From NCBI RefSeq assembly GCF_021513215.1, contig NZ_CP090975.1, positions 1,757,001-1,821,000 of the forward strand: 64,000 nucleotides of DNA. Direction: 5' to 3'. This document shows, in pieces, positions 4,256 through 31,849 of the stretch. This DNA comes from Suttonella sp. R2A3. GTDB lineage: Bacteria > Pseudomonadota > Gammaproteobacteria > Cardiobacteriales > Cardiobacteriaceae. Within the stretch, counting starts at the first letter, position 1. The number at the start of each line of letters is the position of its first letter. The position numbers were made by a program, and so were the translations under genes. The notes beneath the pieces were generated by a model that searched no databases, was not told where the DNA came from, and worked only from the letters and a program-made list of their open reading frames with translations.

Positions 4256-5614
4256 TTATTTAAACGGCATCCCACCGCCACCCATTGGTGGCATACCACG
4301 CATCATATTTTTCATTTTGCCGCCTTTCATCTTCTTCATCTGGCGCTGCATTTCTTTAAACTGCTTGAGTAGACGGTTGACCGCTGGCACGTCGAGACCG
4401 CAACCCGCAGCAATTCGGCGTTTGCGTGAACCCTTGATCAAATCAGGGAAGCGTCGCTCTTGTGGGGTCATCGAAAGAATAATCGCTTCCTGTTGGGCGA
4501 TTTTTTTCGGCGATAAATGCTGGTTTTTTAGCTCTGCAGGAATATTTTTCATTCCTGGGATTTTTTCGAGCATCTTATCTAAATCAACATTGCGCATTTG
4601 TTGTAATTGTTCGCGAAAATCTTCTAAATCAAACGCTTTGCCACGAACAAATTTTTTGGCTAAACGTTGCGCTTTTTTCGCATCGACTTGCTGCTCGATG
4701 TCTTCAATCAGACCGAGCATATCGCCCATGCCTAAAATGCGCGAGGCAATACGCTCAGGATGAAACGCTTCTAAAGCGTCGGTTTTTTCACCAACCCCTA
4801 AGAATTTAATCGGTTTACCAGTAATATGGCGAATAGATAGCGCTGCACCGCCACGTGCATCCCCATCGATTTTGGTCAACACAATACCCGTCAGCGGCAG
4901 CGCTTCATGGAAGGCTTTCGCGGTATTAGCCGCGTCTTGACCGGTCATTGCATCAACGACAAATAAAGTCTCAATTGGGTTGACTGCCTGATGGATGGTC
5001 TGGATTTCGCCCATCAGCTTTTGATCGATATGCAGGCGACCCGCGGTATCGACAATCAACACATCAAAAAATTGTTTTTTTGCGATATCGAGTGCGCGTG
5101 CAGCAATCGATTCAGGTGCTTCGTCGGTACTTGATGGAATAAAGGTTGCGTTGACCTGTCCTGCTAGGGTTTCGAGCTGCTGAATCGCCGCTGGACGATA
5201 CACATCAGCGCTGACCACGGCAACTTTCTTTTTCTCATGAATGAGTTTTTTTGCGAGTTTGGCGGCAGAGGTGGTTTTACCAGAACCCTGCAAACCAGCC
5301 ATCAGGATAACCGCTGGTGGTTGACTGGCGAGATTAAGCGCACTGTTTTCCTCACCCATCGCGCGAGTCAGTTCATTTTTAACGATTTTCAGAAACGCTT
5401 GATCTGGCGAGAGCTTTTGTCCAACTTCTTGGCCAATGGCGTGTTCTTTAATCGCGGTAATAATGTCTTTAACCACACTGATCGCGACATCGGCTTCAAT
5501 TAATGCCATACGCACTTCGCGTAAAGCGTCGCTAATGTTATCCTCAGTGATGCGGCTTTGCCCTTTGAGCTTTTTGATCGTCCCTTGTAGGCGATCACTT
5601 AATTGTTCAAACAT
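4256..5614 (-). CDS. ffh: Signal recognition particle protein Ffh
   Basis: Ffh is the GTPase subunit of the signal recognition particle that binds signal sequences of nascent membrane proteins with 4.5S RNA. The 452 residues show the N domain (about 1-90), the G domain with GLQGSGKTT near residue 110, DTAGRLHID near 190 and TKIDGDARGG near 248, and a methionine-rich M domain (about 300-452) ending in a glycine/methionine tail. Length is normal for the family. It is divergent from ypjD with 144 bases between starts; the ffh-ypjD-corB neighbourhood matches that of E. coli. Confidence 0.97.
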   Translation of the reverse strand: MFEQLSDRLQGTIKKLKGQSRITEDNISDALREVRMALIEADVAISVVKDIITAIKEHAIGQEVGQKLSPDQAFLKIVKNELTRAMGEENSALNLASQPPAVILMAGLQGSGKTTSAAKLAKKLIHEKKKVAVVSADVYRPAAIQQLETLAGQVNATFIPSSTDEAPESIAARALDIAKKQFFDVLIVDTAGRLHIDQKLMGEIQTIHQAVNPIETLFVVDAMTGQDAANTAKAFHEALPLTGIVLTKIDGDARGGAALSIRHITGKPIKFLGVGEKTDALEAFHPERIASRILGMGDMLGLIEDIEQQVDAKKAQRLAKKFVRGKAFDLEDFREQLQQMRNVDLDKMLEKIPGMKNIPAELKNQHLSPKKIAQQEAIILSMTPQERRFPDLIKGSRKRRIAAGCGLDVPAVNRLLKQFKEMQRQMKKMKGGKMKNMMRGMPPMGGGGMPFK

Positions 5615-5758
5615 AATGATGTCCTTCTACGGATTGTTGCGCGTTGCAAAATATTTAGCGCCCAGAGCGCGACTTAAGTTTGTATGTTTTGCAAACGTTC
5701 GCATTGGTTTTTGGTGTATTATAACGGCTTAACTTTGACTTTAATACAGGATAACTTC

Positions 5759-6541
5759 ATGCAGCTTTGGCTGCCGATCGCCATTTCAATTGTGTACTTG
5801 CTTGCCGCACACGCTTTTTGGCGAACCTCGCGTGCGCGCTTTAATCCATTATGGGCGTTGGGTTTGATGGTGCTCGCCTGCCAAGGCCATGCGTTGGTGC
5901 TGATTGGTCAGGTTGGCGAAGGTGAAGCGATCAACCTGTCGATTGTTAATGTGCTGTCAATTTATGGTTGGGCAGTGGCGTGTTTATCGGTGATCTGGCT
6001 GTGGCGCGCGAATGTCGCGCTGGCCGGGGTGATGATCTGTTTACTCAATGCCTTGCTGATTGTTCTGCCGCTGCTCTTTCCCACGCAAAAAGCGTTTATG
6101 GCCAATCTTGACCAAGGCATGCTCTGGCATATCTTGAGCTCAATTGCCGCCTGGACGGTACTTTCGGTGGCGCTCATTAATGCGCTGCTTTATGGTTGGA
6201 TGTTCCATCGCTTAAAACAGCGCCAGCTTAGTCGGCATAATCCGATGGCGTTGATTGGTTTTGAGCGAATGATGGTTTGGTTTTCAGTCATCGGCTTTTT
6301 ACTGCTGTCGCTGTCGCTGTTTTCCGGCTGGCTATTTGTCGAAGACCTGTTCGCCCAGCACTTATGGCATAAAACGCTGTTTACCATCCTCGCCTGGGTC
6401 GTTTATGGCTGGTTGTGTTTTGTCTATTTCATCATGCATCAGCGCGGCATGCGTGTGGTGTATATCAATTTTCTCGGCTACGGGCTACTGCTGACAGGTT
6501 ATGTGATCAGCAATATCATTTTGCAATTTATTGTGCGTTAA
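5759..6541 (+). CDS. ypjD: YpjD/CcsA-like inner membrane protein
   Basis: A 260-residue polytopic protein with about eight hydrophobic segments of the CcsA/CcmC-like cytochrome c assembly family. The E. coli homologue YpjD lies beside ffh in the same divergent order, which supports the name. Its exact role is not established; family members handle heme on the outer face of the membrane. I chose ATG 5759 (MQLWLPIAIS) rather than an upstream in-frame ATG because it begins directly with the first membrane helix and gives the usual length. It is followed nine bases later by corB. Confidence 0.85.
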   Translation: MQLWLPIAISIVYLLAAHAFWRTSRARFNPLWALGLMVLACQGHALVLIGQVGEGEAINLSIVNVLSIYGWAVACLSVIWLWRANVALAGVMICLLNALLIVLPLLFPTQKAFMANLDQGMLWHILSSIAAWTVLSVALINALLYGWMFHRLKQRQLSRHNPMALIGFERMMVWFSVIGFLLLSLSLFSGWLFVEDLFAQHLWHKTLFTILAWVVYGWLCFVYFIMHQRGMRVVYINFLGYGLLLTGYVISNIILQFIVR

Positions 6542-6550
6542 GGAGTTTTC

Positions 6551-7831
6551 GTGGATCACGTTCCCATAGGGATACTGGTATTCTTTCTGATTATTTGTTT
6601 ATTAATTTCAGCATTCTTTTCCTCTTCTGAAACAGCGATGATGTCGCTTAACCGTTATAAAACAAAGCACCTTGCAGAAGAAGGTCATCGTGGGGCGCAA
6701 CGTGCGCTGCATTTGTTAAAGCGTCCGGATCGCTTGCTCGGCACGATCCTCTTGGGCAATAATTTTGTCAATATCGTCGCCACATCTTTAGCAACGATTA
6801 TTGGCATTCGTTTGTTAGGTGATGTGGGCGTTTTGCTGGCAACGATTATCTTAACGATCGTCGTGCTCATTTTCTCCGAAGTCGCGCCGAAAACCTTAGC
6901 GGCTATTTCTCCGCAGCGCATTGCTTTCCCAGCGTCTTGGGTGTTGCGTTTTTTGGTGAAGCTGCTTTATCCGCTGGTGGCGATGATCAATATTTTAGTG
7001 TTGTTGATTTTGCGTCCGTTTGGAGTGCGCTCGGTGACCGGTGGCGATGAATTGATTACCAACGAAGAGCTAAAAACGATCGTCTTATCGTCATCCACAC
7101 AATCAATCTCACCAGAACGTCAGGATATGCTGATGGGCGTGCTGGAGCTGGAAGATATTTCGGTTGATGAGGCGATGGTGCCGCGTAACGAGCTTGAAGG
7201 CGTCGATTTGAACGACCCTTGGGATGAAATTATCAAACAGATCACCAACAGCCGCCACGGGCGCTTGGTTGCTTATCGGGATAATTTAGACCGTATGGAA
7301 GGCATGCTGCATTTGCGCGACATTATCTGGCTGTTTCATGAAAAACGCCTTGATAAGCCATCGCTGATGCAGGCGTTGCGGCCGTGTTTGTATGTACCGG
7401 AAGGGACACCGTTGCGCGCACAATTGTTTCATTTTCAACAGCATCGCGCGCGTAGTGCGCTGGTGGTTGATGAATATGGCGATATTCAAGGCCTGATTAC
7501 CTTAGAAGATATTTTGACCCATATTGTCGGCGATCTGGTGTCGGATCATGACGATGAGAGTCCGGAAATCGTCCATCACCGCGATCAGATTTACCATGTT
7601 GAAGGCAGCATGAGTTTACGGCAAATTAATCGTGAATTAGGGCTGAAGTTACCGCTAGATGGTCCGAATACGCTTTCCGGGCTGATCATTGAAACGCTCG
7701 GTAACTTCCCAGAAGCTGGCACAGAGGTGCAATTCAATGGCTGTACGGTGCAAGTGATTGATTTTATTGATGGGGTTGTCGGGCAGGCTGAAGTGCATGT
7801 CGTCGATGATTTAGGTGATCGCGAGGTTTGA
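6551..7831 (+). CDS. corB: CorB/HlyC-CorC family transporter with CBS domains (YfjD-like)
   Basis: A 426-residue protein starting with GTG after an AAGGAG site. It has a DUF21/CNNM membrane domain (about 1-185, with SSSETAMMSLN near residue 25), two CBS domains (about 195-315) that bind nucleotides in this family, and a CorC_HlyC C-terminal domain (about 335-415). Relatives in the CNNM/CorC group take part in magnesium or cobalt efflux. Length and position after ypjD match E. coli YfjD (428 residues). The magnesium role is from the family, not from anything specific here. Confidence 0.9.
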   Translation: MDHVPIGILVFFLIICLLISAFFSSSETAMMSLNRYKTKHLAEEGHRGAQRALHLLKRPDRLLGTILLGNNFVNIVATSLATIIGIRLLGDVGVLLATIILTIVVLIFSEVAPKTLAAISPQRIAFPASWVLRFLVKLLYPLVAMINILVLLILRPFGVRSVTGGDELITNEELKTIVLSSSTQSISPERQDMLMGVLELEDISVDEAMVPRNELEGVDLNDPWDEIIKQITNSRHGRLVAYRDNLDRMEGMLHLRDIIWLFHEKRLDKPSLMQALRPCLYVPEGTPLRAQLFHFQQHRARSALVVDEYGDIQGLITLEDILTHIVGDLVSDHDDESPEIVHHRDQIYHVEGSMSLRQINRELGLKLPLDGPNTLSGLIIETLGNFPEAGTEVQFNGCTVQVIDFIDGVVGQAEVHVVDDLGDREV

Positions 7832-8341: not shown

Positions 8342-8817
8342 GCCGTTGGCGGATCATCATGCTGGTGATGATTGCAGTAGGGGTGATCACGCTGATCTTA
8401 GGGCTGGTGATGCCGATGATGACGGTGTCAAAAATGGTGGTAGTGAGTAATGAGTTCAGTATCTTATCGGGTATTGGCGCACTGCTCGCTGATAAAACTT
8501 TCGGTTTAGGGCTGATTTTACTCACGTTTAGTGTGATCTTTCCACTGGTGAAATTCATCGGTATGGCCGCTTATCTCTATTATTACCCAGCGATTCCTAA
8601 CGCACTCGTGCATTGGCAGAAAACCTTGAGCCGCTTGGCGAAATTCTCGATGCTCGATGTGTTTGTGGTGGCGTTGATGCTGATGATTGTGAAGCTCGGT
8701 TACTTGGTCGAAGTCACCATTCACCACGGTATTTATTGGTTTTCAGCCGCGGTGATTATCTCGATGATTAGCGGGATCTTAATCGAACGTGATATCGCGC
8801 AGCGTATTCACGGCTAG
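8338..8817 (+). CDS. Paraquat-inducible protein A family, single-domain membrane protein
   Basis: A 159-residue protein with four transmembrane segments and the core PqiA pattern (hydrophobic stretch ending in MPMMTV, then GLGLILLTFSVIFPLVK and SRLAKFSMLDVFVVALMLMIVKLG). Canonical PqiA has two such domains and works with MCE-domain lipid transporters; this one has a single domain and no MCE partner beside it. The ATGA overlap with the yqiB-like gene suggests translational coupling. Function is unknown. The next 233 bases (8818-9050) contain no gene and presumably the aceA promoter. Confidence 0.8.
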   Translation: MSRWRIIMLVMIAVGVITLILGLVMPMMTVSKMVVVSNEFSILSGIGALLADKTFGLGLILLTFSVIFPLVKFIGMAAYLYYYPAIPNALVHWQKTLSRLAKFSMLDVFVVALMLMIVKLGYLVEVTIHHGIYWFSAAVIISMISGILIERDIAQRIHG

Positions 8818-9050
8818 AACAATCCAGCACCTGCTGAAAGAGGGCGTTCGCTTAATCAATACAAAGTATCGCTCATTGTTTAGTTATAAATTCAGTTTAT
8901 ACATCGCATAATAATAAGCATTGCTTTTGATATTGCACTTGACAAACACCCGTTTTATGATGAAACCCAACAGCAAAGCGCTTGATGTCAGCAATACAGC
9001 ATCAGCCATTTACTGTCTTGATTATTATCCTTAACTTCGGGAGTGCCATT

Positions 9051-10367
9051 ATGAGCAAAAGTTTCCAACAGCAAGTCGATGAATTGAAGAAAGATTGGGC
9101 AGAAAACCCACGCTGGAAAGGGGTAGAACGCCCTTATAGCGCGGAAGACGTGGTACGTTTGCGCGGCTCAGTTCAGCCAGAACATACGATTGCGCGCCGT
9201 GGCGCGGAAAAGCTGTGGGCTTTGGTTAATGGCGAGTCGAAGAAAGGCTATGTAAATTGCATGGGCGCGCTCACTGGTGGTCAGGCGATGCAACAGGCCA
9301 AAGCCGGTATTGAAGCGATTTATTTATCGGGTTGGCAGGTGGCGGCAGATGCTAATACGGGCGAAACCATGTATCCGGACCAATCGCTCTATCCTTATGA
9401 TTCAGTACCAACCGTGGTGCGCCGGATTAACAATACCTTTAAGCGCGCTGATGAGATCCAATGGAAAGCGCAGGTCGACGGCAAGATTAAAGGTGAAGAT
9501 GCCACAGATTATTTCTTACCGATTGTTGCTGATGCGGAAGCGGGCTTTGGCGGGGTGTTAAATGCCTTTGAATTGATGAAAAACATGATTAACGCCGGTG
9601 CGGCTGGCGCGCACTTTGAAGACCAGCTCGCTGCGGTGAAAAAATGTGGTCATATGGGTGGTAAAGTATTGGTGCCAACCCAGGAGGCAGTGCAAAAACT
9701 GATTGCTGCGCGTTTGGCTGCGGATGTGATGGGTGTGCCAACCATCGTTTTAGCGCGAACCGATGCTAATGCAGCGGATTTGTTAACTTCAGATGCTGAC
9801 CCTTATGATGCTGACTTTATTACCGGCGAGCGCTCAAGCGAAGGGTTTTTCCGCACACGCGCCGGCATCGATCAGGCGATTTCACGCGGACTGGCGTATG
9901 CGCCTTACGCCGATATGGTGTGGTGTGAAACCGCGACCCCTGACTTGGAAGAAGCGAAAAAGTTTGCTGACGCGATCCATGCAAAATACCCAGATCAAAT
10001 CTTGGCGTATAACTGCTCACCATCGTTTAACTGGAAGAAAAACTTAGATGATGCGACGATCGCTAAGTTCCAGGAAGAACTGTCAAAAATGGGCTATAAA
10101 TACCAGTTTATTACCCTCGCTGGTATCCATAATATGTGGTACAACATGTTCGACTTGGCTTATCACTACGCACGTGGTGAAGGGATGAAGCACTATGTGG
10201 AAAAAGTGCAGCAGCCAGAATTTGCCGCCGCTGAACGTGGCTATACCTTTGCTTCGCATCAGCAAGAAGTTGGCGCAGGCTACTTTGATGACGTCACCAC
10301 GGTGATCCAAGGTGGTCAATCATCGGTCACCGCGTTAACGGGTTCAACCGAAGAAGCGCAGTTCTAA
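9051..10367 (+). CDS. aceA: Isocitrate lyase
   Basis: Cleaves isocitrate to glyoxylate and succinate, the first step of the glyoxylate shunt. The protein is 438 residues from ATG 9051, close to the 434 of E. coli; an upstream in-frame ATG at 8982 would add an unlikely hydrophobic extension. The catalytic signature KKCGHMGGK is present with Cys199, and the Mg/substrate blocks SGWQVAAD and DAEAGFGG are intact. A CGGGAGTG ribosome site precedes the start. Malate synthase (aceB) is not in the window; aceK follows after a terminator-like hairpin. Confidence 0.97.
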
Positions 10368-26729: not shown

Positions 26730-27935
26730 CTATGTATCACGCAAAATCTCGGCAGGCGCACGACGATAGTGGTATAGGGAAGGAATGAGTAAGGCAATAG
26801 CACCGATAATAAAAAGGATGGCGAGAAAACGCATGTCTTCGGTATTAAATTGAACCGGTAAGATGAATCCGTTTTGTGCGCTAATGGCATTTGAGGCAAA
26901 AGCAGCAAGCGCATAACCACCAATAGCGCCGAGAATAATGGCGATACTAATGAGCATCAGCAATGCGCCCCATATCAGCAAAAAGATTCGGTTGCGTGGT
27001 GCGCCAAATGCGCGTAATGCGGCAATTTGGCGTTGCTGTTGCTGTAAGTAAATCGCAATAATGACCGACACAGCGAGGGCAACCAGTAGCTGTGTGATAA
27101 TGGCGATACCACTGAGTAATTTTTTTGCATCGCCTAATGTACTATAGAGCCGCACCAGAACCTCACCCGGAAATACCGCTTGTGTACCGTTACCGCGATA
27201 TTGGCTGCGCAGTTGATACGCACCAGCTACGCTTTGCGGCTTGACGATGACTGCTGGTGCGCCTTGTGGTTCTATGCCACCGATGGGCTCCTGCCACCGT
27301 AGATGGCTGTGCGGGTTATCATCCATCGCGTGCATCAGCCATACGCTCTCTATCGGCACAAGTATCGCTTGATCCCATACGCTGCCATCCACTGGTAATA
27401 CGCCGACCACAGTGTAACTAGAGACCTCGTGGGTGAGATGATCCGCATCACCAAGGTTACCGTGTATCGGGGTGATGGTATCACCGATCTTTAGGCCGCT
27501 ACGTGCGCCGACTACAGCTTCATTATGATGTGTAAAAAAGCGTCCGGATTCAGCGCGTCGTTTACCATCAAGACTGAGCAAATCGTGATTAACGCCAACA
27601 ATAGGGCGCTCTTGATAATAATCGCCAAAAACGATGGGTGAACTCCATGATGCCAATGGATTTTTTGCAATGTTGTCAATTTGTGTTGGGGTGAGCAAAC
27701 TCAAATCACTGGCTTGTAAGAAAACACTAGACAGGACTAGTTGAATCTCGCTACCTGGTGCACCAATAACTAAATCGAATTGATCAGCGGCGCGTGCGCT
27801 GCCTTCGCGTAAGGCACGTTCTTGGAGACTAACGGCCATCGATAGCGCTGTCGTTGCGGCGATGAGTAAGACAATAAACGCACTGCCCCACGGGTGTTGG
27901 CGTAAGCTGGCGGTAAATAAGCGTAACGCGGTCAC
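26730..27935 (-). CDS. FtsX/MacB-type ABC transporter permease
   Basis: A 401-residue permease with one N-terminal helix, a periplasmic domain (about 45-255) and three C-terminal helices ending in LIPSLYHYRRAPAEILRDT. The ADQFDLVIGAPGSEIQLVLS-type stretch near residue 48 is the mark of a subgroup found in Pseudomonas PA4065-like operons that are controlled by zinc; that comparison is from memory. Fourth gene of the phosphatase operon, overlapping the ATPase by ATGA. The transported substrate is unknown; many relatives act on lipoproteins or act as mechanotransmitters. Confidence 0.82.
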   Translation of the reverse strand: MTALRLFTASLRQHPWGSAFIVLLIAATTALSMAVSLQERALREGSARAADQFDLVIGAPGSEIQLVLSSVFLQASDLSLLTPTQIDNIAKNPLASWSSPIVFGDYYQERPIVGVNHDLLSLDGKRRAESGRFFTHHNEAVVGARSGLKIGDTITPIHGNLGDADHLTHEVSSYTVVGVLPVDGSVWDQAILVPIESVWLMHAMDDNPHSHLRWQEPIGGIEPQGAPAVIVKPQSVAGAYQLRSQYRGNGTQAVFPGEVLVRLYSTLGDAKKLLSGIAIITQLLVALAVSVIIAIYLQQQQRQIAALRAFGAPRNRIFLLIWGALLMLISIAIILGAIGGYALAAFASNAISAQNGFILPVQFNTEDMRFLAILFIIGAIALLIPSLYHYRRAPAEILRDT

Positions 27936-28621
27936 GTGTGATCCTCATGATTGAGCGTTGTTTCAATCATACGACCATGTGCCAGTGTAATATGGTGACT
28001 AAAATGTTGTTGTAAAACGGTATCATGGGTCACGCAGAGGAATGTCGCGCCACAGGATGTGCTGAATTCATGCAGTAAAGCCGCCACTTGTGCGCCGTTT
28101 TCTGCGTCTAAGCTGGCAGTGGGTTCATCCGCAATCAATACACGTGGCTTGCCGAGCAGGGCTCGAGCAATGGCGATACGCTGCATTTCGCCGCGAGAAT
28201 GGTCGGCGGTACGCTGTCTGGGATTTTTAATGCCGAGTTGTTCTAGTAAGCTCAGTGCGTATTGGCGTACTGTGGATTCGAGACGGAAATGGCGTAATGC
28301 GCTGGGTAATAACACATTGTCCAGTGCAGAGAGTGAATCGATGAGGTAGAAATTTTGCATGATGAGTCCGAGATGCTCGCCACGCCAGCGGTCGCAGGCT
28401 GTGGGGCTGAGACGATGAATATCATCATTATCCCACCATACACTCCCAGCCTGACCGCGCGCTAAACCACAGAGATGGTGAATTAGCGTTGTTTTACCGC
28501 TGCCGGATGCGCCGCTAATCGCTAAGTGCTCGCCTTGAGCTAAAGACAGGTGCTCAATATCCAGAATAGGCTGGGTTTGTCTAGCGACCTGCACACGTAG
28601 TTGGTTTACCTTAAGCTTCAT
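27932..28621 (-). CDS. ABC transporter ATP-binding protein, LolD/MacB type
   Basis: The 229-residue ATPase partner of the adjacent FtsX-type permease. Walker A GASGSGKTT lies near residue 38, the Q-loop in LGLIMQNFYLIDSL near 88, and Walker B in VLIADEPTASLD near 163. The signature is degenerate: DHSRGEMQRIAIARAL in place of LSGGE, with Ser-Arg-Gly-Glu. That change is seen in some MacB-like exporters but is worth noting. It starts immediately after the stop of the CPFC protein with no spacing. Confidence 0.85.
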   Translation of the reverse strand: MKLKVNQLRVQVARQTQPILDIEHLSLAQGEHLAISGASGSGKTTLIHHLCGLARGQAGSVWWDNDDIHRLSPTACDRWRGEHLGLIMQNFYLIDSLSALDNVLLPSALRHFRLESTVRQYALSLLEQLGIKNPRQRTADHSRGEMQRIAIARALLGKPRVLIADEPTASLDAENGAQVAALLHEFSTSCGATFLCVTHDTVLQQHFSHHITLAHGRMIETTLNHEDHT

Positions 28622-29074
28622 TTATAGCGCAGTGAATGTAGCGTCGCGCAATCGCAACTGGCTGACGAAACCTGTGTCGGGATCAGTCCAAGAACCGGTT
28701 TCTAACCGACCCTCTACTTCAATTTGTTGATTGTATTGGGTAAACGTTTGTTTCTTTTTTAAATAGATCACTACAATGTCTGTTGGCCAGTCTGCATCGG
28801 TGGAACAAAACGGGCAAATGCTCATGGGCATTTTGGTAAGCACAAAGAACTGCGCCTCGGCTTTAAGTGGTGGCGCCATAAAGCCTTTAATAACCACTTC
28901 TTTACCGACGTTCTCTTTTACTCTGTCAGAGAATTCCAGTCCTAGCGGTGAAAAGCTACCGTATAACTGATTAAAATCAATGATGGTTTTTGCAGTGGCT
29001 ATGGGTATCAAAAACATAAAAAATAAGAACGCGCCGAAGCGCGTTCTGAGATGTTGTGCATGATACCACGCCAT
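28622..29074 (-). CDS. Small exported OB-fold-like protein with CPFC motif
   Basis: A 150-residue protein with a membrane-targeting N-terminus (hydrophobic about 13-28, possible cleavage after ATA) and a beta-rich body: VGKEVVIKGFMAPPL near 56, FFVLTKMPMSICPFC with Cys87 and Cys90, and QQIEVEGRLETG near 117. The pattern resembles DUF3299-type proteins found beside zinc-regulated ABC operons; the match is weak. CxxC could bind metal or form a disulfide in the periplasm. It shares one base with the alkaline phosphatase stop (TAATG), so it is translationally coupled to it. Confidence 0.65.
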   Translation of the reverse strand: MAWYHAQHLRTRFGAFLFFMFLIPIATAKTIIDFNQLYGSFSPLGLEFSDRVKENVGKEVVIKGFMAPPLKAEAQFFVLTKMPMSICPFCSTDADWPTDIVVIYLKKKQTFTQYNQQIEVEGRLETGSWTDPDTGFVSQLRLRDATFTAL

Positions 29075-30879
29075 TATTGGGCGGCCTTGCTGGATGGTGG
29101 TGTGAAATCTACGCTATCTTCAGGAATCTGACTAGATTCGTCTTGTAAGCGGTTCGATAGCGCCAAAGCATCGGTGATGACTTTGAACGAATCGGTGTTT
29201 TCCATATAGCCATGATAGTTCTCGGCACCTGGTCCCTGCGCGGTGAGGATGACATCATCAACGGCATGCACACCACTATCGGCATCTTTGGGCAGGTTGC
29301 CAATGCGCAGTTGTGCGCCGGGCGCATCTTTGTATTGTTCATTAGCAGCATATTGACCGTTCTCGTTTTTCACTGCCGGTACGAATACGCCATCAAGTTT
29401 TGGACGATAGGTTTCGTAATGATCCGGGAAGTTGTTGTAAAACACGGCGAGGCGTTTGCTGACATTCAGATCATCAGGATAACCGTCGCCATCGGCGTCC
29501 GTATAGTTTGGATAACCAGCTTCGTCGTATGTCCCGACTTTATCGCGCATTTCGCCTTCTTTCTCGTCATCAACTGTGCCAATAATGCCAATACCGTGGG
29601 TGTGGTCAGCAGTCACGACAATCATCGTATCAGGATTTTTTTCAGCGAATTCCTGGGCAATCGCTATAGATTGATCAAGCATGATGGTATTCATGAATGA
29701 GCGTTCCCAATCCAAAGGATGAGAGTCTTTATCAATACGTGCCGATTCTACGACTAAAACGAACCCTTGCTCGTTATCTTTCGATAAAACGTCCAGCGCG
29801 GTTTGTGTCATGGTGGTCAAATCGGGCTGGTCGGGGAATTTAGCGGTGACTTCATTTTTGGCAAAACGGCGATCATAAACGCCATCCATATTGCCGGTGT
29901 TGAATAGACCGAGTAATTTTGTGGTATCTGCGCCAATGCTGGTTAATTCGCTATTATTGGTGACAACCTGATAACCGGCATCGGTGAATTTCTGGATGAA
30001 GTCGGTATCATCTTTACGTTTGGATCCCGGTGTGGTTTGTGGCAAGAAATATGCTGAGCCACCACCAAGCAATACATCCGGCTGCGCGTTATAGAACATG
30101 CCAACAATTTTATCTTTATCGCCTCGACGACGCGTTTGTGCGACCATGGCGCCCGGTGTAGCGTCTTCTACTTCTGCATCACTAACCACGCCGAACTTCA
30201 TTCCCGGGACACGACGTACCAGCAACCCTAGTGGTTCCTGGCGTGGGTGATCAAGGTTATCTTCTGAACGACTTAGATAGACACCCATGGCATTGACCGC
30301 CGATTTATGACCAGTTAAGTATGCACTCATGGTGTTGGCTGAATCAGAGGCGATAGTGTCTTGAGAAGAGGTACCAATCATCGCCATATACGGCATTTGA
30401 TCCATCGCTAATCTGCCATTGGCTTTACCTTCATAAACGCCTTTTGACAAAATTCGTGCGCCAGTACGGTTGGCAACGCTCATGCCATCACCAACAAAGA
30501 AAATGATATTTTTCGCTTTTTGTTCTTGTGGGCTGGCAAATACGCTCCAGCTGACTTTGCTTTCTTTATCGCCTTCACTCACGCTTAAGGTGTAATCACC
30601 AGCCTCTTTAATTGCTACATTGCGCAGCCATACAGTCGATGCTGGTGTGCCGTTTTCTTGGGCGATAAACTGATAATCGCCTTTAAGGGTATCTTGCAGT
30701 GGTTGACCATTGACGCTGATGTTAACGTCTTCTGGCTTGATTTCCTGGTCGAATTCCACCTTAACATCAAAATAGGAACCAGCAAGGATGGTTGCGCGGT
30801 CAAGGGGGAAAATAGTCGCGGCTTGTGCTTGTGCAGCTAATGCTGCGCTGATGATGACAGCAAGAGAAGATAAACGCAT
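29074..30879 (-). CDS. phoA: Alkaline phosphatase, secreted
   Basis: A 601-residue periplasmic phosphomonoesterase. It has a signal peptide (about 1-21, cleavage near AQA), an N-terminal Ig-like beta domain (about 22-115) and the phosphatase core: Asp131 in FFVGDGMS, the nucleophile Ser180 in DSA, VVESARIDKDSH, and TADHTHG. Near the C-terminal third there is a DxDxDG calcium-like loop (DADGDGYPDD). It is larger than E. coli PhoA (471). I chose ATG 30879 because a GGAG site precedes it; TTG 30891 would place that site inside the gene. First gene of a four-gene operon. Confidence 0.88.
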   Translation of the reverse strand: MRLSSLAVIISAALAAQAQAATIFPLDRATILAGSYFDVKVEFDQEIKPEDVNISVNGQPLQDTLKGDYQFIAQENGTPASTVWLRNVAIKEAGDYTLSVSEGDKESKVSWSVFASPQEQKAKNIIFFVGDGMSVANRTGARILSKGVYEGKANGRLAMDQMPYMAMIGTSSQDTIASDSANTMSAYLTGHKSAVNAMGVYLSRSEDNLDHPRQEPLGLLVRRVPGMKFGVVSDAEVEDATPGAMVAQTRRRGDKDKIVGMFYNAQPDVLLGGGSAYFLPQTTPGSKRKDDTDFIQKFTDAGYQVVTNNSELTSIGADTTKLLGLFNTGNMDGVYDRRFAKNEVTAKFPDQPDLTTMTQTALDVLSKDNEQGFVLVVESARIDKDSHPLDWERSFMNTIMLDQSIAIAQEFAEKNPDTMIVVTADHTHGIGIIGTVDDEKEGEMRDKVGTYDEAGYPNYTDADGDGYPDDLNVSKRLAVFYNNFPDHYETYRPKLDGVFVPAVKNENGQYAANEQYKDAPGAQLRIGNLPKDADSGVHAVDDVILTAQGPGAENYHGYMENTDSFKVITDALALSNRLQDESSQIPEDSVDFTPPSSKAAQ

Positions 30880-31099
30880 TGGGGTCTCCAAGTGATGATA
30901 ATGCGAGAGCTATTGTCGCGGGGCAGTGTTGCCAAAATATGTCAAAATTTTTAATTAATACTTTTATTTAACATACGGATTTTAAACATAAAATAAGTAT
31001 AATCAGCTTATCTTTATAAACAAGATGGCGTGCTGCTTATGCTTTTCGATATACCGTTATATTTGTTATGATAAAGAACGTTATAAATGGGAGAAAATA

Positions 31100-31849
31100 A
31101 TGAGTTATAAGCTAATCTTATTACGTCACGGGCAAAGCGAATGGAACCTGCAGAACCGGTTTACCGGTTGGCATGATGTCGATCTCACCGATAAAGGGCG
31201 TGAAGAAGCGCGGCGGGCGGGTGCGCAACTCAAAGCAGCCAATTTGAATATTGATACCGTGTTTACCTCGGTGCTCACGCGTGCGATTCGCACGATGTGG
31301 ATTGCGCTCGATGAAATGGGTTTGATGTATCTGCCAGTTGAGCGCAGTTTCCGTCTTAATGAACGCCACTACGGCGCACTGCAAGGGCTTAATAAAGCTG
31401 AAACGGCTGAAAAACACGGTGAAGAGCAAGTCAAAATCTGGCGACGCAGTTTTGACACACCGCCACCAGCACTCGAAGAAGGCGATGAGCGCCTGCCAGA
31501 AAACGATCCACGCTATGCCAAGCTTGATCGAGCGTTATTGCCGCGTGCGGAAAGCTTAAAGCTGACCATCGAGCGGGTATTACCGTATTGGCAAGACCGT
31601 ATTGTGCCGGCGTTACGAGAAGGAAAAACGCCTTTAGTGGTTGCGCACGGTAATAGCTTGCGCGCGTTGGTGAAATACTTGGATGACATGAGCGATGCCG
31701 ATATTCTCGAATTCAATATCCCAACCGGTGTGCCGATTGTTTATGAACTCGATGACAACCTTCGTCCAATTAAACGGGAATTTTTAGGCAGCCCAGAAGA
31801 AGTGGCGAAACTCATGGAAGCGGTGGCCAACCAAGGTAAGAAAGACTAA
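31100..31849 (+). CDS. gpmA: 2,3-bisphosphoglycerate-dependent phosphoglycerate mutase
   Basis: Interconverts 3- and 2-phosphoglycerate in glycolysis. The 249 residues from ATG 31100 match E. coli GpmA (250). The phosphohistidine motif LRHGQSEWN is at residues 8-16, [13 protein letters not shown] near 88 and [13 protein letters not shown] near 183. A GGGAGA site at 31089-31094 supports this start; 75 upstream bases in frame are not part of the protein. A strong terminator follows. Confidence 0.96.

Follow-up and report, generated by a model that had tools for sequence, protein, structure and literature searches.

We analysed a 64,000-nt stretch of the genome of Suttonella sp. R2A3 (positions 1,757,001 to 1,821,000 of NZ_CP090975.1; hereafter the window), in which four genes on the minus strand, running without gaps from position 30879 to 26730, encode an alkaline phosphatase (ALP), a small protein that we call the CPFC protein after its Cys-Pro-Phe-Cys motif, an ABC ATPase and an FtsX-type permease. 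The same four genes recur in the same order in distant bacteria, and we tentatively explain them as a conserved phosphate-scavenging module, in which a secreted ALP is paired with a dedicated periplasmic metal-handling machine that would act as its ATP-driven zinc helper. Alkaline phosphatase is a textbook periplasmic zinc enzyme, the PhoA family uses zinc and magnesium, and the zinc supply of such enzymes outside the cytoplasm is largely open.

The first gene encodes a PhoA-type ALP of 601 residues (29074–30879) with a Sec-type signal peptide recognized by eye. It shares one base (TAATG) with the gene for the CPFC protein (150 residues, 28622–29074), which abuts the ATPase gene (229 residues, PF00005; 27932–28621) with zero gap. 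The ATPase gene overlaps by four bases that of the permease (401 residues, PF02687; 26730–27935), which is of the FtsX/MacB/LolC type and has a large periplasmic domain. The initial annotation gave the first two junctions correctly, but the third reads GTGA rather than ATGA, GTG being the permease start codon.

A survey of gene neighborhoods, as the initial annotation had proposed, revealed that the four-gene order recurs in Alpha- and Gammaproteobacteria and in Deinococcus/Thermus. Close to the window, the sister genome G001 carries all four genes in the same order, with a permease 71% identical to that of the window, and a search of 10 further genomes of the same family returned no such permease. 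The window-type ALP is present in G000 and G001 among 12 same-family genomes, with a weak match in G005, and a sample of 369 genomes of the class yielded CPFC matches in three (G000, G001 and a weak DUF3299-like match in G390). On plasmids, a relative of the CPFC protein is encoded in 55 of 72,556 records, many of them strains of Deinococcus radiodurans. We opened 19 of these 55 regions, picked for diversity; 17 have the four genes in this order and on one strand, including loci of D. radiodurans, Thermus and Allomeiothermus, with the permease split or truncated in two (L046 and L055).

An earlier scan of genome contigs with the permease as query gave no matches. When queried with the CPFC alignment, the scan returned at least 599 pattern matches, of which at least 556 were confirmed and the best 80 kept. 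All 80 show the four-gene order (78 by script; in L080 and L094 the ALP gene lies just beyond the filter), a proportion that is not an unbiased rate because the kept loci are the closest relatives. These 80 include Rhizobiaceae, Brucella, Paracoccus and allies, Pectobacterium, Brenneria, Serratia, Pragia and four Pasteurellaceae, and they rule out that the window operon is a local curiosity. Recurrence in two phyla puts the gene order far beyond chance. The module is widespread but patchy, and the near relatives of the window are mostly without it.

For a more even view we sampled 240 genomes from the class to which G397, a Rhizobium record, belongs, with a threshold of >350 bits for the permease clade. 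Eight genomes carry a permease of this clade, and an ALP gene adjoins it in five. In G442 the ATPase is divergent within the module and ALP stands beside the permease. The idea that the ABC pair comes with the phosphatase thus holds for the close clade, in the 80 best loci as in most of the eight sampled genomes, but fails for the wider Zrg-type clade, where the loci read have no adjacent ALP. Pairwise protein distances among 43 representatives (thinned from 94 after four short-fragment loci were dropped) correlate between ALP and the CPFC protein (r 0.90) and between ALP and the permease (r 0.86), which fits joint inheritance and does not show contact. We rejected a direct gift from rhizobia, as the permease tree groups the window and G001 with Pasteurellaceae (support 0.998); the position in the ALP tree has a support of 0.44.

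The ALP of the window matches PF00245 with an E value of 1.1e-64, the sole PF00245 match in the genome, and has a complete set of catalytic and metal residues and no cysteine. In the numbering of E. coli PhoA, with the correspondence read from the alignment, D51, S102, T155, R166, E322, D327, H331, D369, H370 and H412 are kept in all 97 sequences with letters at these positions, and D153 and K328 in 92 of the 97, the other five having His. Most loci, the Deinococcota and the window have a long-type ALP, in which an N-terminal extension of ~95 residues precedes the catalytic domain (about residues 22–117 in the window, 30529–30816, as judged from the alignment and a Pfam match starting at residue 122). 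Short-type ALPs occupy the slot in Qingshengfaniella, P. liaowanqingii, Cereibacter, Microvirga and G624; these five share 38–51% identity with four ALPs that stand free in other genomes and 26–33% with six long module ALPs. By these identities, two distinct ALP subfamilies occupy the same slot. Since the ALP subfamily is swapped and the rest of the module is constant, we argue that ALP activity or metal chemistry is what matters. In the even sample of 240 genomes, long-type ALPs (>700 bits) adjoin ABC genes in three of three genomes, and free-standing ALPs of the short type also exist.

Two further features of the ALPs were noted. An EF-hand-like, Asp-rich loop (DADGDGYPDD, about residues 461–470 of the window ALP), which many long-type ALPs of Proteobacteria also have, is a possible calcium site. 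For the ALP matches in G398 (Cricetibacter) and G400 (Actinobacillus), one TGA and one TAA are reported within the matched regions, yet long open frames are listed for them.

The permease carries a candidate metal site. All 98 permeases of the clade have Asp105, His158, His169, Asp188 and His202; in the window the last four lie in a periplasmic segment encoded by 27330–27464, with Asp105 upstream. All five residues of this signature, which we define here, are kept in 14 of 14 permeases from DUF3299-containing operons, and the three His occur together in none of eight generic FtsX-type permeases, a contrast softened by the poor alignment of the generic proteins. The His/Asp set is a candidate site common to the module and the DUF3299-operon permeases. 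In addition, the loop after Trp199 contains at least six His in 83 of 98 permeases, with a maximum of 26. Within the taxonomic order of the window, G024, G025 and G031 encode permeases 26–28% identical to that of the window; in G024 the neighbors are a ZinT-ZrgA fusion, DUF3299 proteins and, by eye, a Fur-family-like regulator. The Zrg-type operon of locus L024 has a ZinT-ZrgA domain fusion (8729–9850) and a DUF3299-like protein apparently fused, by eye, to a polytopic membrane domain (5555–6847). ZrgA itself (PF10986) is not found among the four proteins of the window operon, and a genome search for it was also empty, as were its controls.

The CPFC protein has no Pfam or NCBIfam match above cut-off (Pfam was checked in 20 of 20 members), and none of the 20 reaches the cut-off of DUF3299 (PF11736), the family to which V. 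parahaemolyticus ZrgE is annotated (PMC9817125). In profile comparisons it matches DUF3299-like proteins encoded beside related ABC pairs (hhalign probability 98.4%, E 9.2e-15; eight proteins aligned) and, more weakly, classic DUF3299 (90%, E 1.7e-6; four of the proteins seen). The structure model (pLDDT 81.5) matches OB folds, and PA4066 of Pseudomonas aeruginosa (4HSP, DUF3299) is the single solved structure with a Foldseek E value below 0.001. PA4066 also ranks first in VIA-align (Z 9.5, the next 8.5); the fold alone would not settle the family because the matches after 4HSP are other OB folds only ~1 Z lower. Sequence searches of solved structures with the CPFC protein or the permease gave no useful match. 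Profile comparison and modeled fold together indicate that the CPFC protein is a distant relative of DUF3299/ZrgE, predicted to be periplasmic. Together with the His/Asp set of the permease, this argues that the ABC pair and the CPFC protein are distant relatives of the zinc-responsive ZrgABCDE/PA4063-PA4066 system, so the resemblance to zinc-controlled Pseudomonas operons that the initial annotation had seen holds as homology.

The CP[FY]C motif is present in 99 of 99 CPFC members (Cys87–Cys90 in the window, 28805–28816). Of the eight DUF3299-like relatives that were aligned, four have His at the second Cys position, two have Cys and two have Gln or Tyr, an exchange that would suit metal ligands better than a redox CxxC. 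We reject as unlikely a role of the CPFC protein as thiol-disulfide partner of ALP, because ALP lacks cysteine in 82 of 99 loci, the window included. A loose twin-arginine pattern near the start is seen in 67 of 97 members, with none by eye in the window copy, and 18 of 40 members show a weak similarity to DUF1980_C/TIGR03943 (E≤0.1, best 0.0043), all below cut-off.

Promoters of most relatives point to phosphate starvation as the signal. We scanned 95 promoters over the 300 bp upstream of the ALP start, with 100 dinucleotide shuffles of each as background, comprising those of the window, G001 and 93 of 98 relatives (the other five, without a placeable ALP start, were excluded). A Pho box, scored with a matrix, is present at p≤0.05 in 65 of the 95 (~5 expected); 58 of the 65 sites lie on the plus strand, 55 of them at −55 to −90. 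Of 276 random windows drawn from these loci 14 pass the same score, against 68 of 93 promoters. The signal extends to Pasteurellaceae, Pragia, Martelella alba, Phyllobacterium, Aurantimonas, Agrobacterium and Paracoccus yeei, many of the loci being related; Bosea, Martelella limonii, two Brucella, Cereibacter and Deinococcota either lack it or have it out of place, and for Pectobacterium and Brenneria the top-scoring site lies on the opposite strand and overlaps the start codon. Zur-like sites, scored with an alphaproteobacterial matrix from sites given in PMC5387054, reach p≤0.01 in only six of 95 promoters (1 expected): G001, P. versutus, three Rhizobium loci and Pseudochelatococcus. A stricter Zur score was passed by five of 93 promoters versus three of 276 random windows, a rank test confounded by base composition because the random windows include coding DNA.

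Zinc control is thus not the rule among relatives, and we discard general Zur control of the module, the Zur-like sites being sporadic. Nor does the promoter region of the window (30880–31099), where the initial annotation had proposed a search for Zur or Pho boxes, contain a convincing one: the best Pho match has p 0.23, and the best Zur-like match (p 0.04) falls inside codons of gpmA, read as starting divergently at 31100. In the sister genome G001 the best Pho match has p 0.03. A PhoB-like regulator is encoded in the genome that holds the window, at 275.7 bits, below the cut-off of 296.2. In G001, DUF1007 and His-rich NicO genes (L021, 11234–12885) run divergently from the ALP gene, and a Zur-like near-palindrome in the region between could serve either side. 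The DUF1007/NicO pair resembles the ZevAB zinc uptake pair.

Between the ALP stop and the machinery genes lies a terminator-like hairpin with a perfect 9-bp stem, a TTCG loop and a T-run (29026–29047, minus strand). It starts 26 nt past the ALP stop, within codons for the CPFC signal peptide, and qualifies the initial proposal that the four genes are translated together, with which the overlapping and abutting frames otherwise agree. Folding of a 101-nt stretch gave z −3.4, a value matched by one of 200 shuffles. A hairpin of other sequence lies 19 nt past the ALP stop in G001. In fixed 120-nt regions after stops, hairpins follow ALP in 40 of 99 loci, CPFC in 1 of 99, the ATPase in 6 of 98 and the permease in 5 of 98, and they occur in 12 of 495 random windows. 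It is this position across loci that counts rather than the single hit, because a generic terminator scan of the whole region finds about as many sites (six) as in shuffles (mean 4.6). Placed after the ALP stop, the hairpin may cause the CPFC protein, ATPase and permease to be made in smaller amounts. This would fit a surplus of enzyme relative to its machine, and translation across the hairpin could act as a switch.

How might these proteins work together? In the mechanism that we propose, the machine would consist of the Zrg-type ABC pair, with its MacB/LolC fold, and the CPFC protein as a ZrgE/DUF3299-like OB-fold partner. Zinc would be held by the His/Asp site of the permease, helped in many relatives by the His-rich loop, and by the Cys site of the CPFC protein; ATP hydrolysis would drive motion of the periplasmic domains, and zinc would be handed to newly exported apo-phosphatase, or kept available to ALP, when phosphate runs out. 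That the machine supplies metal to ALP is suggested by the position of ALP, which stands ahead of the ATPase gene where ZrgA stands in Zrg operons, and by phosphate control in most relatives. We infer zinc as the metal, the direction of transfer, direct contact with ALP and the role of ATP. The narrower formulation, an ATP-driven, phosphate-starvation-controlled loading system for ALP that amounts to a Zrg system with its zinc-binding protein replaced by an enzyme, is conceivable, and we advance it with greater reserve than the broader idea of a zinc helper.

Several observations weigh against a zinc helper. Metal loading is a proposal that goes beyond the homology and linkage, and many PhoA enzymes work without such a system; free-standing ALPs were also observed in the sampled genomes. 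Zur-like sites are rare, as described above. The permease loop has three His in the window and one each in D. radiodurans and Thermus, so a His-rich loop is not essential. Some loci break the association: L050 (D. aetherius) has ALP and CPFC genes and lacks the ABC pair, L051 (Bosea) and two of the 240 genomes (G458 and G580, loci L160 and L161) encode a CPFC-like protein with neither ALP nor ABC genes beside it, and in G416, where ALP stands beside the permease, the CPFC gene is reduced to a 64-residue remnant. In G480 the ATPase gene lies directly beside the CPFC gene; the contigs of G438, G480 and G501 end at the module, and these fragmentary assemblies contain no ALP match. The related PA4064-PA4065 pair has been proposed to export pyochelin-cobalt, not to move zinc (PMC11481552). 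Finally, G001 has a MacA-MacB-TolC-like set, identified by eye, ~1 kb downstream of the module (L021, 1320–5769), and in Azospirillum annotated TolC, ABC and HlyD genes lie just upstream of it (L052, 1–3870), arrangements that fit a transport function as well.

Such a function underlies the main rival, a Lol- or Mac-like envelope machine that moves ALP itself and has the CPFC protein as its adaptor; it would either release ALP from the inner membrane or help it to reach the cell surface. The permease model (pLDDT 85.6) best matches LolE, LolC and MacB, and the ATPase scores best in NCBIfam against LolD, below its cut-off. The correlated distances of ALP and machine agree with a mover, the hairpin makes a sub-stoichiometric machine plausible, and tripartite-efflux-like genes lie near the module not only in G001 and Azospirillum but also in Roseomonas, with an outer-membrane efflux subunit upstream. 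However, ALP has by eye an ordinary Sec-type signal and, having no cysteine, no lipobox; no MacA- or TolC-like gene was seen by eye in or directly beside the window operon (the genome as a whole was not searched), and the nearby efflux sets carry their own ABC genes. Protein export would also leave the invariant His/Asp set and the His-rich loops unexplained. We therefore regard carriage of ALP as unlikely, if worth keeping in mind.

Zinc might also flow the other way, with ALP replacing ZrgA as zinc binder and the ABC pair taking up or recovering zinc when phosphate stress ends or zinc is scarce. ALP sits in the position of ZrgA, which has been proposed as periplasmic zinc-binding protein for ZrgBC (PMC9820375), and the six loci with Zur-like sites are as expected for such a role. 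Yet the regulatory signature in most relatives is Pho, not Zur, the catalytic residues, needless in a mere binding protein, are fully conserved, and a MacB-fold pair of this type has been argued not to be a metal importer (PMC11481552). Recovery of zinc is in our view improbable. Lower still we place the possibility that the ABC pair exports a metallophore or other small metal complex, with ALP encoded alongside because cells face phosphate and zinc stress at the same time. Homology to PA4063-PA4066 and the pyochelin-cobalt export model (PMC11481552) speak for it, but no metallophore-synthesis product name appears in the 16 annotated of the 19 opened plasmid neighborhoods (~6 kb on each side), and the two ALP subfamilies in the slot point to a need for ALP itself. 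Mere co-regulation by phosphate starvation, with the ABC pair and the CPFC protein doing a separate envelope job and never touching ALP, could draw on the Pho boxes, the D. aetherius locus and the free-standing short-type ALPs, but is very improbable given an order conserved over two phyla and with two ALP subfamilies, and long-type ALPs beside ABC genes in every genome of the even sample that has them.

A zinc helper for ALP would have both relatives and analogs among known systems. ZrgA is needed for normal growth of znuA-deleted V. cholerae in zinc-deficient conditions (PMC9820375), and ZrgABCDE of Vibrio shares with the module a separate ATPase and MacB-fold permease and a ZrgE/DUF3299-like periplasmic protein; D105, H158, H169, D188 and H202 are common to the DUF3299-operon permeases, among which the Vibrio proteins themselves were not included. 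The module differs in having ALP instead of ZrgA, a CPFC protein below the DUF3299 cut-off and encoded before the ABC genes (the DUF3299 gene follows them in Zrg), and Pho boxes in most relatives as opposed to Zur control. PA4063-PA4066 resembles it through PA4066, the best solved fold match of the CPFC protein, and through a split MacB-type transporter, but is Zur-regulated and has been proposed to export pyochelin-cobalt (PMC11481552), and its metal binder PA4063 is replaced by an enzyme in the module. As both the DUF3299 cut-off and ZrgA are missed, we do not count the module as a member of the Zrg/PA4063-PA4066 family.

Compared with PhoA-type ALPs (PF00245), the module enzyme has the complete catalytic and metal-ligand set and, in most relatives, a Pho-box promoter, but the long type adds the N-terminal extension, most module ALPs lack cysteine, and an ABC machine is the partner in the loci read. 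MacB and LolCDE (type VII ABC) share the predicted permease fold and the split ATPase/permease layout, whereas the module has the candidate periplasmic metal site and no MacA/TolC or lipoprotein-chaperone genes in its operon. The closest printed idea is that a metallothionein, BmtA, supplies zinc to alkaline phosphatase in marine Synechococcus (PMC9337993). This cyanobacterial case has in common with ours the notion that ALP would have its own zinc supply when phosphate is short, but BmtA is an unrelated protein without an ABC machine, and the available text of PMC9337993 does not describe it in an operon with ALP.

Among the papers listed in searches of an open full-text library (subscription papers and preprints lie outside its coverage), none describes the module by its title or the opening of its abstract. 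DRB0014 and DRB0016 of D. radiodurans were considered as module genes and dropped, since the literature, as far as available, calls them hemin/iron transport genes and, going by annotated tags, the module occupies another part of MP1. The module makes zinc delivery to a periplasmic ALP testable by deletion in laboratory strains. It also ties phosphate and zinc stress together at the gene level, hints at a possible role of the poorly understood Zrg/PA4063-PA4066 family in serving a metal client in the periplasm, and gives the CPFC family, which has no Pfam or NCBIfam name, a genomic context.

The Suttonella sp. R2A3 genome is a single contig of 1.99 Mb, in which the operon lies, by reading, among branched-chain amino-acid transport genes and the divergent phosphoglycerate mutase gene gpmA. 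Elsewhere, a contig titled Bacillus subtilis SK6B4 (L136) holds a module of proteobacterial type, preceded by a clear Pho box, and is probably mislabelled or from a mixed assembly. In G442, which also has the ALP module, a gene that by eye encodes a carbonic-anhydrase-like protein, a zinc enzyme, stands just before a DUF3299-type ABC operon (L164, 3921–4586).

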